Below, in pieces: positions 6,509 through 10,722 of a stretch of DNA of 51,637 bases. The notes under the pieces were generated by a model, which was not told the origin of the DNA, made no database searches, and saw only the letters and a program-made list of their open reading frames with translations. The stretch is from the NCBI GenBank assembly GCA_002401955.1, contig NVUQ01000019.1, forward strand, positions 1-51,637, given 5' to 3'. The translations under genes and the position numbers were made by a program. Origin of the DNA: Flavobacteriales bacterium (GTDB taxonomy: Bacteria > Bacteroidota > Bacteroidia > Flavobacteriales_E > Vicingaceae). The stretch's first letter is position 1; every line of letters starts with the position of its first letter.

Positions 6509-7072
6509 TTATTTTATCAATTTTATTAGATTTGGATAAAAAATTCCTGTCTTTCCACTATTTGTTTTAATTGCGAATACTATCGGTAATATTATATTTA
6601 AGGCGTAAAGTAATATGAATACATAAAGTAAAATATCGGAAAATCCATAATGCATAATTTTAAATAAAGCGGAAGTAGTTATTGAAATAAAAGCAAAAAC
6701 AGTCCAAACTATTTGAAAATTCAAAAGATTTGCTCCGATTTTTTTCAGACCAATTACTTTATCTTTTTTTGTCAGCCATAAAATTAGAGGAAGTATTATA
6801 TTTCCAACTGGAATAGCCAAAAATGCTATTACTGAAAGATGAAAAATAATCAAGTAGTTTTTGTCCGTTTTTAGTCCATAATCTAAAATATCTTCGACAT
6901 TTATACCAAGAACTTCACAAATCAAGTTTAGAGTTTTTCCACGTGGTTCACTTTCATTGTTTTCAATCCGTTGAATTGTTCTTAAATTTACTTGAGAAGA
7001 CTCGGCTAGCTCTTCTTGAGATAACCCTTTTTTCTTTCTTACTTCTTTAATTTTTTTTCCAATTTCCTTCAT
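6509..7072 (-). CDS. XRE-family HTH protein with membrane domain (DUF4870-like)
   Basis: This 187-residue protein begins with a Cro/C1-type helix-turn-helix (residues about 5-60; GLSQEELAESSQVNLRTIQR is the HTH core). It then has three to four predicted membrane helices starting at about residue 73, with a DUF4870-like pattern (AFLAIPVGNIILPLILWL). Such membrane-tethered XRE proteins are common in Bacteroidota, and their signals are unknown. It is divergent from the R-M genes with 264 bp between the starts and could act on that shared intergenic region. Repeat A2 follows its stop, which suggests it is an independent cassette. Confidence 0.82.
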   Translation of the reverse strand: MKEIGKKIKEVRKKKGLSQEELAESSQVNLRTIQRIENNESEPRGKTLNLICEVLGINVEDILDYGLKTDKNYLIIFHLSVIAFLAIPVGNIILPLILWLTKKDKVIGLKKIGANLLNFQIVWTVFAFISITTSALFKIMHYGFSDILLYVFILLYALNIILPIVFAIKTNSGKTGIFYPNLIKLIK

Positions 7073-7285
7073 AATTAATTAGTTTATCGTTTTAGCAAAA
7101 CTATTTATGAAACTATCATTTTGATAACGGTTTATTTGCGACATTTTTACGACATTCTTGTTAATCTATTGGTTTTGTTCAGTTTTAATGTACGTTAAGA
7201 TACATAGTGTTGGGTTTTTGTTATTATTTCACAATATAATTAAAGTGATTTATTTTCCTGATATTTTTCGTTAATTTAAAAAACT

Positions 7286-7320
7286 GTCCGTAGATTTGTC
7301 CGTGTCCGTAAAAACGTCCG
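7286..7320 (+). promoter_or_regulatory. Four GTCCG direct repeats over the R-M promoter
   Basis: GTCCG occurs at 7286-7290, 7298-7302, 7304-7308 and 7316-7320, so start-to-start spacing is 12, 6 and 12 bp. TAGATTTG at 7291-7298, an exact TAnnTTTG -7 box, lies between repeats 1 and 2 and shares its last G with repeat 2. A transcript would start near 7305 and give a leader of about 30 bases to the ATG at 7337. A symmetric direct-repeat cluster at this position is a strong candidate operator. The integrase-arm domain of the methyltransferase is the obvious candidate binder. Confidence 0.7.
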
Positions 7321-7336
7321 CAACTAAAATTAAACT

Positions 7337-9550
7337 ATGGCAACGATCAATTACTACTTAGATAAAGCTGATAAAAAAGGATTATCTCCAATACATTTAA
7401 GAATCAATTGTAATGGTAAACAAATCAAAGCTTCAACAGGAAGTAAAATTAAAGTTGAGGACTTTGATAAGGATAAACAAGAAGTAAAAAACAATGCTGA
7501 TAATCATATTGAAATCAATCATTATTTATCTTATTTAAAAGATAGAGCTGATGAACTATTGAATCGTTCTTATAAAAAGGCATTTACGAACAAAGAAATT
7601 AAGGACAAACTGAATGGTTTTATTGAAAATTATAAAGAAGATCATAATGTAAATATTGTCAGGGAGCAAGTAGAGTTATACGGTAAACCATTCACGTTTA
7701 TTGACTTGTTTGCTGGTGCTGGAGGTTTTAGTGAAGGATTAATTCAAGCAGAAGTCAATAACAAATTCTTTGATTTTTTAGTTGCAAATGATATAAATGA
7801 GAATTGTGAATTAACACACGTTGTTAGATACAATCATCAACTAGGGTTAGATGCTAAGTTTTTATGTCAAGACATTACTGAACCTGATTTCTTAGATAAT
7901 TTATTGGAGAATATTGGAGACAAAAAAGTAGATGTGGTTTGTGGTGGACCACCTTGCCAAAGTTTCAGTTTAGCAGGTAAAAGGCGAAAGTTTGATAAAA
8001 AGGACGATTTGTTTTCTCACTATCTTCAAGTAATAAAGGTTTTACAGCCTAAGTACTTTGTTATGGAGAATGTGAAGGGTATCCTAACAAAAGAGGGAGG
8101 GAAGATTAAAGATTTGATTATAAAAGACATTAATTCAATAGTTGATATCAAAGAAATTCCAAGACTTACTACATTCATTAAGAGTCTTAAAAAGACAAAT
8201 AAAGAAGATGAGTTTATAATTGATTGTTTGATTAAAAGGATTGAGATCGAACAATACAGCGAAAAGAAAGCAGAAGAAGCTAAAGAAGCATTCATTAAAA
8301 CTGTTGATTCTAAATTCCGTCTATTAACTCCTAAAATTGTTGATTATAAGACCAGTAAAATGGATCAAAGAATTAGCACAATTAGACACGGGTTTAATTT
8401 ATTAGAAAGAAGTAAAGAGTGGGAAGTCTTAAAACGAAAAATTATACGCGAAAAAGATTATTGTAATGTTGATAATGACTATTTCGTAGATCACTTTAAT
8501 GATTTCCTTTCTGAGCTTGCACCTGAAGAGATTATCAGAAAGATAGAAGAGGCCTTTAAAAGGTTAAATGTTGCTAAAGAGTTCTATAAAGATTGTAATG
8601 ATATTTTGATAGGCCTACAGATTTATACATTTGGTTTTGATGATACTATTCAATTTCTAAAAAAGTTTTGCAACAATAAACAGGATAAAGAACTTATAGA
8701 GATAATTGAAGATATTAGGTTATATAAAATTGAAGCTCCTTTTGTTGCTAACGCTTCAAATTATGGAGTGCCACAGAGCCGCGAAAGAGTATTGTTTATA
8801 GGATGTAGAAAGGATCAAAAATTTATTTCTGGCATACCTGCAACAGTTAAAGAGGAAGAAAAAGTTACTGTTTTTGAAGCACTGTATGACTTAGATTTTG
8901 TTGGAAATGATGAGGATGCCAGAGATTATGAATTAGTTGATATTTCTAAACAGTATAATGGGACAGCAAAAAAAATGAAGAGTTTAGTATCTAAACGATC
9001 TGTTGAAGGTGTTCCAAACACTAAAAAAGGAAAAACATTCTCAGATTGGAGTAAGGAGGGAAGACTCAATGGACGATTTAAAAATGCGACTAAGCCTTTT
9101 TATGTAAGAAATGCAGAAGATTTAAAAAATGGGGTAAAAGAATACAATATATTACATAACCACAAGACAAGTAAACAAAGTGAAACGGTAATAAAGCGTT
9201 TAGATATTATCAGAAAAGAGGGAAATTACAAAAGAGCACAAAATGAATTAAATGCTTGCGGCCTTTCAACAAACAAAAGAAATTACAATGTTCTTAAACC
9301 TGATGGTCAAAGTCCAACAGTTTTGACAATAGCTGATGACTACATTCATTACAACACACCAAGATCATTAACGGTTAGAGAAATGGCAAGATTACAATCC
9401 TTTGATGATTCGTTTGTTTTTCAAGGGAAACGATCAACAGGTGGTAATAATAGAAAAACAGAAGTTCCTCAATATACTTTAGTAGGCAATGCAGTACCTC
9501 CGTTATTGGCAAGGGCAGTTGCTACTGAGATTTTAAAAAATATTAAATGA
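7337..9550 (+). CDS. C5 DNA methyltransferase with N-terminal integrase arm domain
   Basis: This is a 737-residue cytosine-5 DNA methyltransferase. Motif I is FAGAGG (125-130), motif IV is GGPPCQS with catalytic Cys207, motif VI is ENV with Glu244, motif VIII is PQSRER (479-484), and motif X is GNAVPP (717-722). Residues 1 to about 75 read as an arm-type DNA-binding domain of Bacteroidota tyrosine integrases (INYYLD, LRINCNGK, ASTGSKIK, then a helix). No Met lies between residue 1 and motif VI, so this extension must be translated if the enzyme is made. The gap between motifs VI and VIII is about 235 residues against about 45 in M.HhaI, because of a charged helical insertion. The stop overlaps the endonuclease start (ATGA). 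The gene runs opposite to its neighbours. The recognition sequence is unknown. Confidence 0.92.
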   Translation: MATINYYLDKADKKGLSPIHLRINCNGKQIKASTGSKIKVEDFDKDKQEVKNNADNHIEINHYLSYLKDRADELLNRSYKKAFTNKEIKDKLNGFIENYKEDHNVNIVREQVELYGKPFTFIDLFAGAGGFSEGLIQAEVNNKFFDFLVANDINENCELTHVVRYNHQLGLDAKFLCQDITEPDFLDNLLENIGDKKVDVVCGGPPCQSFSLAGKRRKFDKKDDLFSHYLQVIKVLQPKYFVMENVKGILTKEGGKIKDLIIKDINSIVDIKEIPRLTTFIKSLKKTNKEDEFIIDCLIKRIEIEQYSEKKAEEAKEAFIKTVDSKFRLLTPKIVDYKTSKMDQRISTIRHGFNLLERSKEWEVLKRKIIREKDYCNVDNDYFVDHFNDFLSELAPEEIIRKIEEAFKRLNVAKEFYKDCNDILIGLQIYTFGFDDTIQFLKKFCNNKQDKELIEIIEDIRLYKIEAPFVANASNYGVPQSRERVLFIGCRKDQKFISGIPATVKEEEKVTVFEALYDLDFVGNDEDARDYELVDISKQYNGTAKKMKSLVSKRSVEGVPNTKKGKTFSDWSKEGRLNGRFKNATKPFYVRNAEDLKNGVKEYNILHNHKTSKQSETVIKRLDIIRKEGNYKRAQNELNACGLSTNKRNYNVLKPDGQSPTVLTIADDYIHYNTPRSLTVREMARLQSFDDSFVFQGKRSTGGNNRKTEVPQYTLVGNAVPPLLARAVATEILKNIK

Positions 9551-10722
9551 GGCCTCTAAATAATTTTGAAGAACAAAACTTAAAAATTTTAACTGAAAAT
9601 TCTGTTTCATTAACCCTGATTGAGCCTACAGAAAATGGTCTTACAAAGTCCATAATGGATGCGACTGGTACGGTTAGAAATTATCTGAAAACAAATAGCT
9701 TTCACGATTACGGTTTGCAGTTGCAAGGACCAGAAAACAAGATAATTATTGATGCTATTATCTATGGCGAGTATTCCATTTTTAAATCTAAAACTTCACT
9801 TTACAGACCCCAAACAAAAAAGGGTGACCCTAGAATTTGGTTTTCTGGTTTAACAAAATACTCAGAGCCTAATGATATATTAGCATTGATATGTTTTGAT
9901 GAGAAAATACACATCCTTAATTTAACGAAATTATCAGTTGAACAATTGTTGAAATCCACATTAATTAATCCTTTAAAAGAACTTATTCAAGAAATTAATG
10001 GGGTCGAAAATGCTATAGCAAACGAATTACTTGTTATGCTGAGAAAAATAGCTGGTTCACCAATTCCATCAATGGTAAATGCAGATACTTCTGTAGGTAG
10101 GACACTTGAAACGGCTTTGAATATTGATATTAACTCTTCAAAACTCCCAGATTACAAAGGAATTGAATTAAAATCATTTAGGGCTAAAAAAGGAAATCGT
10201 AAGAACCTATTTGCACAGGTGCCTAACTGGAAACTAAGTAACTTTAAAAGTTCATCTGAAATTTTAGATGCTTTCGGTTATTGGAGAGAAGAAGATTTTA
10301 AGTTGTATTGTACAGTTTCTGGTATTACAGTTAATTCACAAGGCTTGTCGTTAAAAGTTGATTCTGACATTAATCAATTAGTTGAAAATTCAGATCAGAA
10401 AGGAATAGGGGGTTTTGTTGTTTGGACTCTAGATAAATTACACGAACGATTATTAGAAAAGCATAAAGAAACATTTTGGGTTGCTGCTGATACTATTACA
10501 ATTGATGGAAAAGAGCATTTTCAATACAAGGAAGTTGAGCATACAAAAAAGCCTATCGCTTCTCAATTTGATATTCTTTTAGAGCAAGGAGTAATTACAT
10601 TAGACCATTTAATTAAAAGAAACTCAAAAGGTAGGGTTGTTGAAAAAGGACCTTTGTTTAAAATAAAGCCAAATAGTTTAAATCTACTTTTTCCACCAAG
10701 TGAAAAGTATTTATTACTATAA
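9547..10722 (+). CDS. Type II restriction endonuclease, MvaI/BcnI-like
   Basis: This 391-residue protein is coupled to the methyltransferase by a four-base overlap. The region GRTLETALNI..PDYKGIELKS matches the MvaI/BcnI-type PD-(D/E)xK core. Asp202, Glu207 and Lys209 form the D-x4-E-x-K catalytic signature. Residues 1 to about 150 (DATGTVRNYLK, FHDYGLQLQGPENK) look like an N-terminal DNA-recognition or regulatory part; classical MvaI is shorter. Known family members cut within CCWGG/CCSGG-type sites, often as monomers, but specificity here cannot be inferred. It protects against foreign DNA with the cognate methyltransferase and may stabilise the region as an addiction unit. Confidence 0.8.
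   Translation: MRPLNNFEEQNLKILTENSVSLTLIEPTENGLTKSIMDATGTVRNYLKTNSFHDYGLQLQGPENKIIIDAIIYGEYSIFKSKTSLYRPQTKKGDPRIWFSGLTKYSEPNDILALICFDEKIHILNLTKLSVEQLLKSTLINPLKELIQEINGVENAIANELLVMLRKIAGSPIPSMVNADTSVGRTLETALNIDINSSKLPDYKGIELKSFRAKKGNRKNLFAQVPNWKLSNFKSSSEILDAFGYWREEDFKLYCTVSGITVNSQGLSLKVDSDINQLVENSDQKGIGGFVVWTLDKLHERLLEKHKETFWVAADTITIDGKEHFQYKEVEHTKKPIASQFDILLEQGVITLDHLIKRNSKGRVVEKGPLFKIKPNSLNLLFPPSEKYLLL

Follow-up and report, generated by a model that had tools for sequence, protein, structure and literature searches.

The window, i.e., the whole 51,637-nt stretch of DNA analyzed here, encodes on its forward strand a protein of 737 residues (positions 7337 to 9550, ATG start, from ORF calling and Pfam) in which an arm DNA-binding domain of the tyrosine integrase type is fused to a C5 cytosine methyltransferase. 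The arm occupies residues 1 to 77 (7337 to 7567; Pfam match over residues 9 to 77, with AlphaFold and Foldseek) and is followed by a helical linker (residues 78 to 118, 7568 to 7690, from AlphaFold and the partition used for dN/dS) and by the methyltransferase body (residues 119 to 737, 7691 to 9547, from Pfam), all on the forward strand. The body is matched by DNA_methylase (PF00145) from residue 119 onwards (E = 6.9e−53), and the PCQ, ENV, and QxRxR motifs are all present, so that profile and motifs both identify a C5 methyltransferase. Residues P206-C207-Q208, E244-N245-V246, Q480, R482, and R484 are invariant among 23 aligned members. The first-pass annotation had described intact C5 motifs after the arm, and the strings ENV and QSRER are indeed there; PCQ, ENV, and QxRxR are catalytic motifs of C5 enzymes. 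The Pfam matches of the 737-residue protein include no SAM-like or Phage_integrase domain, and it is thus not a tyrosine integrase; nor did residues 1 to 111 match any HTH family at an E value of ≤1. Between the ENV and QSRER motifs, about 195 residues form an insert that is modeled as entirely helical (residues 267 to 462, 8135 to 8722, from AlphaFold), with a pLDDT of 84 to 94 over residues 271 to 330 and 401 to 460 and of 54 to 86 between them; to our knowledge, other C5 enzymes have a short stretch at this position.

The next gene on the same strand (9547 to 10722) encodes a restriction endonuclease of the MvaI/BcnI family (PF15515, E = 4e−72), whose N-terminal 164 residues (9547 to 10038) matched no Pfam family at an E value of ≤0.01. 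The two reading frames share 4 nt, at the end of the methyltransferase gene and the start of the endonuclease gene. Judged by gene content, with a methyltransferase adjoining a PF15515 endonuclease, the two genes (7337 to 9550 and 9547 to 10722) are a Type II restriction-modification operon of predicted enzymes.

The identification of residues 1 to about 75 as an integrase-type arm, proposed in the first-pass annotation, holds by profile, by predicted fold, and by structural comparison. Arm-DNA-bind_5 (PF17293) scored 34.9 bits against the whole protein and 41.4 bits against residues 1 to 111 (E = 2.2e−10), above its curated cutoff of 22.6. Integrase arms consist of a three-stranded sheet plus a helix, and the AlphaFold model of residues 1 to 115 (pLDDT of about 92 over residues 1 to 70) matches this fold, with three strands (residues 3 to 8, 16 to 25, and 28 to 39) and a helix (57 to 76). 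The full-length model was poor (pLDDT of 57.7), with the arm and most of the insert (about 270 to 460) confident. When the structure check suggested earlier was run, the top three Foldseek matches among viral models were phage integrases (probability of 1.00; E = 4e−6, 2e−4, and 2.5e−3), two of them at an E value of ≤0.001. Foldseek returned nothing from the PDB at that threshold for the arm model, and the three PDB sequences matched by the arm profile look like chance hits (E = 0.22 to 0.26). The extension is not a false start either, as had been argued, since the next methionine after Met1 is M243, inside the ENV motif. All 27 N termini scanned (the window and 26 homologous loci) matched PF17293 at an E value of ≤0.01, and the distant member L119 scored 24.3 bits. 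Restricted to pairs with a dS of 0.05 to 0.8, dN/dS was 0.052 for the arm (161 pairs), 0.073 for the linker, and 0.021, 0.062, and 0.044 for three parts of the methyltransferase (162 pairs). The arm is therefore under purifying selection, and its strands 2 and 3 hold residues that are invariant among the aligned members.

The search for the same fusion in other genomes, also proposed beforehand, showed that it is widespread. A scan of genome contigs yielded 62 loci, with the arm at the gene start in 58 of them when judged by eye (L030 after re-anchoring by hand) and in 26 by Pfam. Two loci (L061 and L067) are cut by a contig start and one (L068) is a C-terminal remnant, so that the arm is present in 58 of the 59 named-genome loci whose 5′ part is intact and not truncated. 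The exception is L062, a single contig from a record titled Kiritimatiellae MAG, which encodes a methyltransferase 67% identical to that of the window together with the endonuclease; it has a different N terminus without a Pfam match in place of the arm, and its 9,857 nt contain no GTCCGT. Because one of the six scan peptides lay within the arm, the search was repeated with the methyltransferase body alone. Of 295 genomes from the class to which the window belongs, 10 had a match (E ≤ 1e−40), as did 5 of 395 genomes of a phylum sample (E ≤ 1e−60; the phylum is taken as Bacteroidota from the named relatives), which together make 12 distinct genomes, all 12 with the arm. With at most four candidates scored per genome, the search of the 295 genomes left a gap between 1e−40 and 2.3e−256, so the methyltransferase subfamily looks sharply bounded. 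Members occur in records whose titles name Flavobacteriales, Flammeovirga, Labilibaculum, and Chitinophagales; the viral contigs yielded no relative, and the plasmid and phage records had no place covering 80% of the protein. The first-pass annotation had named beforehand what would speak against the fusion, namely, the lack of an arm profile or structural match, or homologs in which the region is an ordinary part of a methyltransferase family with another function. Neither occurred, since the arm profile matches and the homologs keep the domain. The fusion finding is confirmed and was understated; what the present analysis adds is its wide distribution, a likely operator at 7285 to 7322, and similar repeats before arm integrases.

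This operator-like block consists of TGTCCGT-type direct repeats (7285 to 7322, forward strand) and was recognized by its conservation in homologs. In the window, copies start at 7285, 7297, 7303, and 7315 (offsets of 0, 12, 18, and 30), forming two pairs whose members lie 12 nt apart. The consensus before homologous ATGs is TGTCCGTAAATTTGTCCGTGT(A/C)CGTAAAAACGTCCGT, and the last repeat usually lies 8 nt 5′ of the ATG (36 of 57 homologs; range, 4 to 24). The block was seen in all 69 upstream regions, a set that does not include G115/L114 (68 by pattern and L008 by eye). Among 25 divergent members, it carries 1.57 bits per column, versus 0.45 in the preceding 40 nt. Four copies are present in 51 of 57 homologs, three in 4, and two in 2, and in L011, L064, and L119, whose blocks are reduced, it is the first pair that remains. 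The conserved site is thus a direct repeat and not an SsoII-like inverted repeat. We also considered the block as a methylation site of a CCNGG enzyme, CCNGG being the site type of the MvaI/BcnI family, and dropped this idea since none of the 57 upstream regions (110 nt each) contains CCNGG.

In the searched genomes, the block is specific to this gene family. The core pattern TGTCCGTANNTTTGTCCGT had 8 sites in the 295 genomes (reversed control, 0), all of them just 5′ of one of the 10 arm-methyltransferase genes. The operator of G062 is one base off this pattern, and G115 has no block directly before its arm-methyltransferase gene. That genome carries the block close to one end of a different contig, where an IS-like terminal sequence comes after it; the counterpart of this end precedes the gene (by eye), which makes an insertion between operator and start likely, across the contig break. 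A looser pattern, TGTCCGTN5TGTCCG, had 60 sites, 11 of them at arm-methyltransferase operators in all 10 genomes; most of the others look unrelated, and the reversed control was also frequent, so the 12-nt spacing alone is no mark of an operator. In viral contigs, no arm ORF started within 200 nt of any of the 8 core-pattern sites.

A tblastn match to the endonuclease was found in 66 of the 69 loci with usable downstream DNA, including L023, L055, and L111, where only the first 137 residues were matched. In these three loci, the best endonuclease match is the N-terminal part at about 40% identity, and in L111 it ends a longer ORF. No endonuclease match was found downstream in L110, L011, or L013; L110 and L013 retain a four-copy block and L011 a two-copy block. 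In 48 of the 66 loci that have a match, the endonuclease gene begins within the stop of the methyltransferase gene, suggesting that one operator governs both genes. About 1.7 to 2.2 kb separates the two genes in L008, L015, L027, L030, and L108; one gene of this interval is GmrSD_N over the cutoff in L030, and one is a sub-cutoff GmrSD_N match in L108.

A putative promoter lies within the block. The sequence TAGATTTG (7291 to 7298, forward strand), which spans repeat copies 1 and 2, matches TAnnTTTG, given as the Bacteroidota −7 box in PMC9723704 and PMC6847099. In 54 of 57 homologs, TAnnTTTG stands before TCCG across copies 1 and 2. The window has 72 matches to TAnnTTTG, no more than expected by chance, so a match to the box alone means little. 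In the window, this box carries a G at −10, a base described as virtually absent there (PMC6847099). Of 68 cases, 65 have TT at the end of spacer 1 and 55 have AA at the end of spacer 2, a difference of the kind a promoter box would demand. A TTG at −33, 17 to 23 nt upstream of the −7 box, was present in only 17 of 68, and we dropped the idea of a convincing −33 element for this reason. Use of the −7 box would place the transcription start near 7303 and leave a leader of about 34 nt.

Repeats of the same kind occur before integrase genes that share the arm. Of 75 arm matches in the 295 genomes, 10 were the methyltransferases and 65 were others, mostly in frames of about 400 to 490 residues; all 12 tested arm ORFs of about 400 to 475 residues have SAM-like and Phage_integrase domains. 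Upstream regions were compared for 61 nonmethyltransferase arm ORFs, 12 of them checked as integrases: 58 of the 65 matches plus 3 loci from the window's own genome, with 7 matches left out for an unresolved start or a short or broken frame. An exact direct repeat with a period of 10 to 13 nt was found in 31 of the 61 (P ≤ 0.01 versus dinucleotide shuffles). By a fixed score, 24 had a strong repeat and 37 had none, versus 2 strong repeats before 281 control genes taken from the window and L007 to L068, i.e., from genomes other than those of the arm ORFs, and motif filtered to remove methyltransferases and likely integrases; one of these two controls, L037, itself resembles an arm protein by eye. 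The period of the 24 strong repeats was 12 nt in 14 cases, 11 nt in 9, and 13 nt in 1. Split post hoc by arm type, strong repeats preceded 24 of 36 ORFs with MAT/MAS-like starts and none of the other 25. Integrases with MAT/MAS-type arms (L079 to L098, L125 to L164, L003, and L005) often have repeats directly 5′ of the gene. On the minus strand of the window, AATGTCGTAAAAATGTCGCAAA (7135 to 7156) is an 11-nt direct repeat that resembles the arm type and has no adjoining arm gene. It lies about 65 nt before a divergent gene (6509 to 7072, minus strand) with HTH_3 and DUF4870 domains, which is the HTH gene nearest to the operon.

The spelling of the integrase repeats varies, and their similarity tracks arm identity (rho = 0.584) among 26 integrases picked for a repeat score of ≥14, a period of 11 or 12 nt, and a MAT/MAS-like start. 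The correlation persists for pairs under 45% identity (rho = 0.335; P = 0.002), and shared DNA ancestry may add to it. The integrase repeat nearest to TGTCCGTA is that of L082, whose arm begins MASTNYYLDK: its sequence is TGTCAGTAAATGTGTCAGTAA, and its near-identical unit is TGTCAGTAA. The arm of L082 is itself not the nearest one: L079 scores higher in the arm search and, over 48 residues, identity is 0.44 for L083, 0.43 for L095, and 0.40 for L082; the repeats of L079, L083, and L095 are unlike TGTCCGTA. A tree of the arms (52 columns, 62 rows) allows a single origin of the methyltransferase arms, with weak support (71/83). The simplest history would be that the 5′ part of an integrase gene was captured together with its repeats. 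More broadly, there is perhaps an even chance that the MAT/MAS arms of Bacteroidota integrases read the direct repeats of 11 to 12 nt before their own genes through a readable protein-DNA code, making a transferable reader-operator cassette that passed at least once to a methyltransferase, became the master switch of a restriction-modification system, and spread through the phylum.

The arm domain, its fusion, the selection on it, the repeat block, the exclusivity of the block in the searched genomes, and the covariation of arm and repeat were all computed directly. From them, we infer with a probability of about 0.7 that the arm-methyltransferase represses its own operon through a captured arm and operator. 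An autoregulatory role had been suggested in the first-pass annotation, and the conserved direct-repeat block just 5′ of the gene points to it. In the mechanism that we propose, arm and operator would derive from an integrase gene, taken over as a unit. Once enough methyltransferase has built up, its arm would bind the TGTCCGT direct repeats directly 5′ of its own start codon, and since both the presumed −7 box and the presumed start of transcription lie under these repeats, binding would block RNA polymerase. Methyltransferase and endonuclease would then both fall, by way of one shared message. On entry into a new host, the operator would at first be unoccupied, so that the methyltransferase, encoded by the first gene, could be made in an early burst until the loop closes. 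Both halves of this mechanism have precedents: in KplE1, the promoter of the integrase gene overlaps attL and is repressed by the gene's own product, IntS (PMC2951348), and the N-terminal region of M.Ecl18kI and M.SsoII represses their own gene (PMC3695355, PMC3978073).

The arm could instead bind the repeats and activate the operon, or repress one promoter while activating another. M.Ecl18kI and M.SsoII are described as repressing their own gene and raising the endonuclease gene (PMC3695355), and the weak −33 element (17 of 68) could require an activator. However, where the endonuclease starts inside the methyltransferase stop (48 of 66 loci), there is no intergenic endonuclease promoter to raise, and repeats lying across a presumed −7 box with its start site are placed as for a repressor. 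We regard this reading as unlikely. A somewhat less probable one is that another protein, or the methyltransferase body, reads the repeats and that the arm does something else. Control through a methylation site does exist in systems of the M.CfrBI type, but here CCNGG is absent from the 110 nt upstream in all 57 homologs, the arm-less homolog L062 also lacks the repeats, and many integrases that share only the arm carry repeats of the same kind in the same place, with arm and repeat covarying.

It is quite improbable that the arm guides the enzyme to the arm-type sites that mobile elements carry, or blocks such sites, and so acts against or with integrases. The domain is of the integrase type, and one integrase, that of L082, has a near-identical repeat, but the exact core pattern stands only before the enzyme's own gene in the 295 genomes, and its 8 sites in viral contigs have no arm ORF start within 200 nt. 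Finally, a passive relic that donated promoter and start codon when the restriction-modification cassette entered an integrase gene would account for fusion and upstream DNA by one event, but is largely contradicted by the dN/dS of 0.052, by retention of the arm in 12 of 12 genomes, and by the invariant residues in strands 2 and 3, and is almost certainly wrong.

If self-repression through the arm is true, it would show that the arm domains of integrases are usable as portable regulators of transcription, and a control loop is predicted for this restriction-modification family in the Flavobacteriales, Flammeovirga, Labilibaculum, and Chitinophagales records. The 26 integrases and the methyltransferase family, with their differing arms and predicted cognate repeats, lend themselves to testing directly how an arm recognizes its DNA, and the association of MAT/MAS arms with repeats of 11 to 12 nt could help in the prediction of arm-type sites. 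A search of the open-licence literature returned no methyltransferase with a recombinase arm and an arm-type operator.

The protein shares features with four known systems. Like the tyrosine integrases with Arm-DNA-bind_5 in the window's class, it has this domain at its N terminus and, as in many of them, repeats with a period of 11 to 12 nt before its gene, whereas the methyltransferase replaces the SAM-like and catalytic recombinase domains and the repeat is spelled TGTCCGT. KplE1 IntS likewise binds sites, those of attL, that overlap its own promoter (PMC2951348), binding being predicted in our case, but its sites belong to an attachment region and none is known here. The PF15515 endonuclease is shared with the MvaI/BcnI Type II systems, from which the operon differs by about 160 N-terminal endonuclease residues without a Pfam match and by an arm-fused C5 methyltransferase as partner. 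M.SsoII and M.Ecl18kI are described as C5 methyltransferases with a linker-joined, short N-terminal DNA-binding region that acts on the promoter of their own system (PMC3978073, PMC3695355), as is predicted for the arm. Their N terminus is modeled on the phage 434 repressor and their site is an inverted repeat in these sources, whereas here an integrase arm domain faces direct repeats of 12 nt, and both genes are codirectional and overlapping. The arm-methyltransferase is a variant of the methyltransferases that regulate themselves, one in which both the reader and the operator are of another type.
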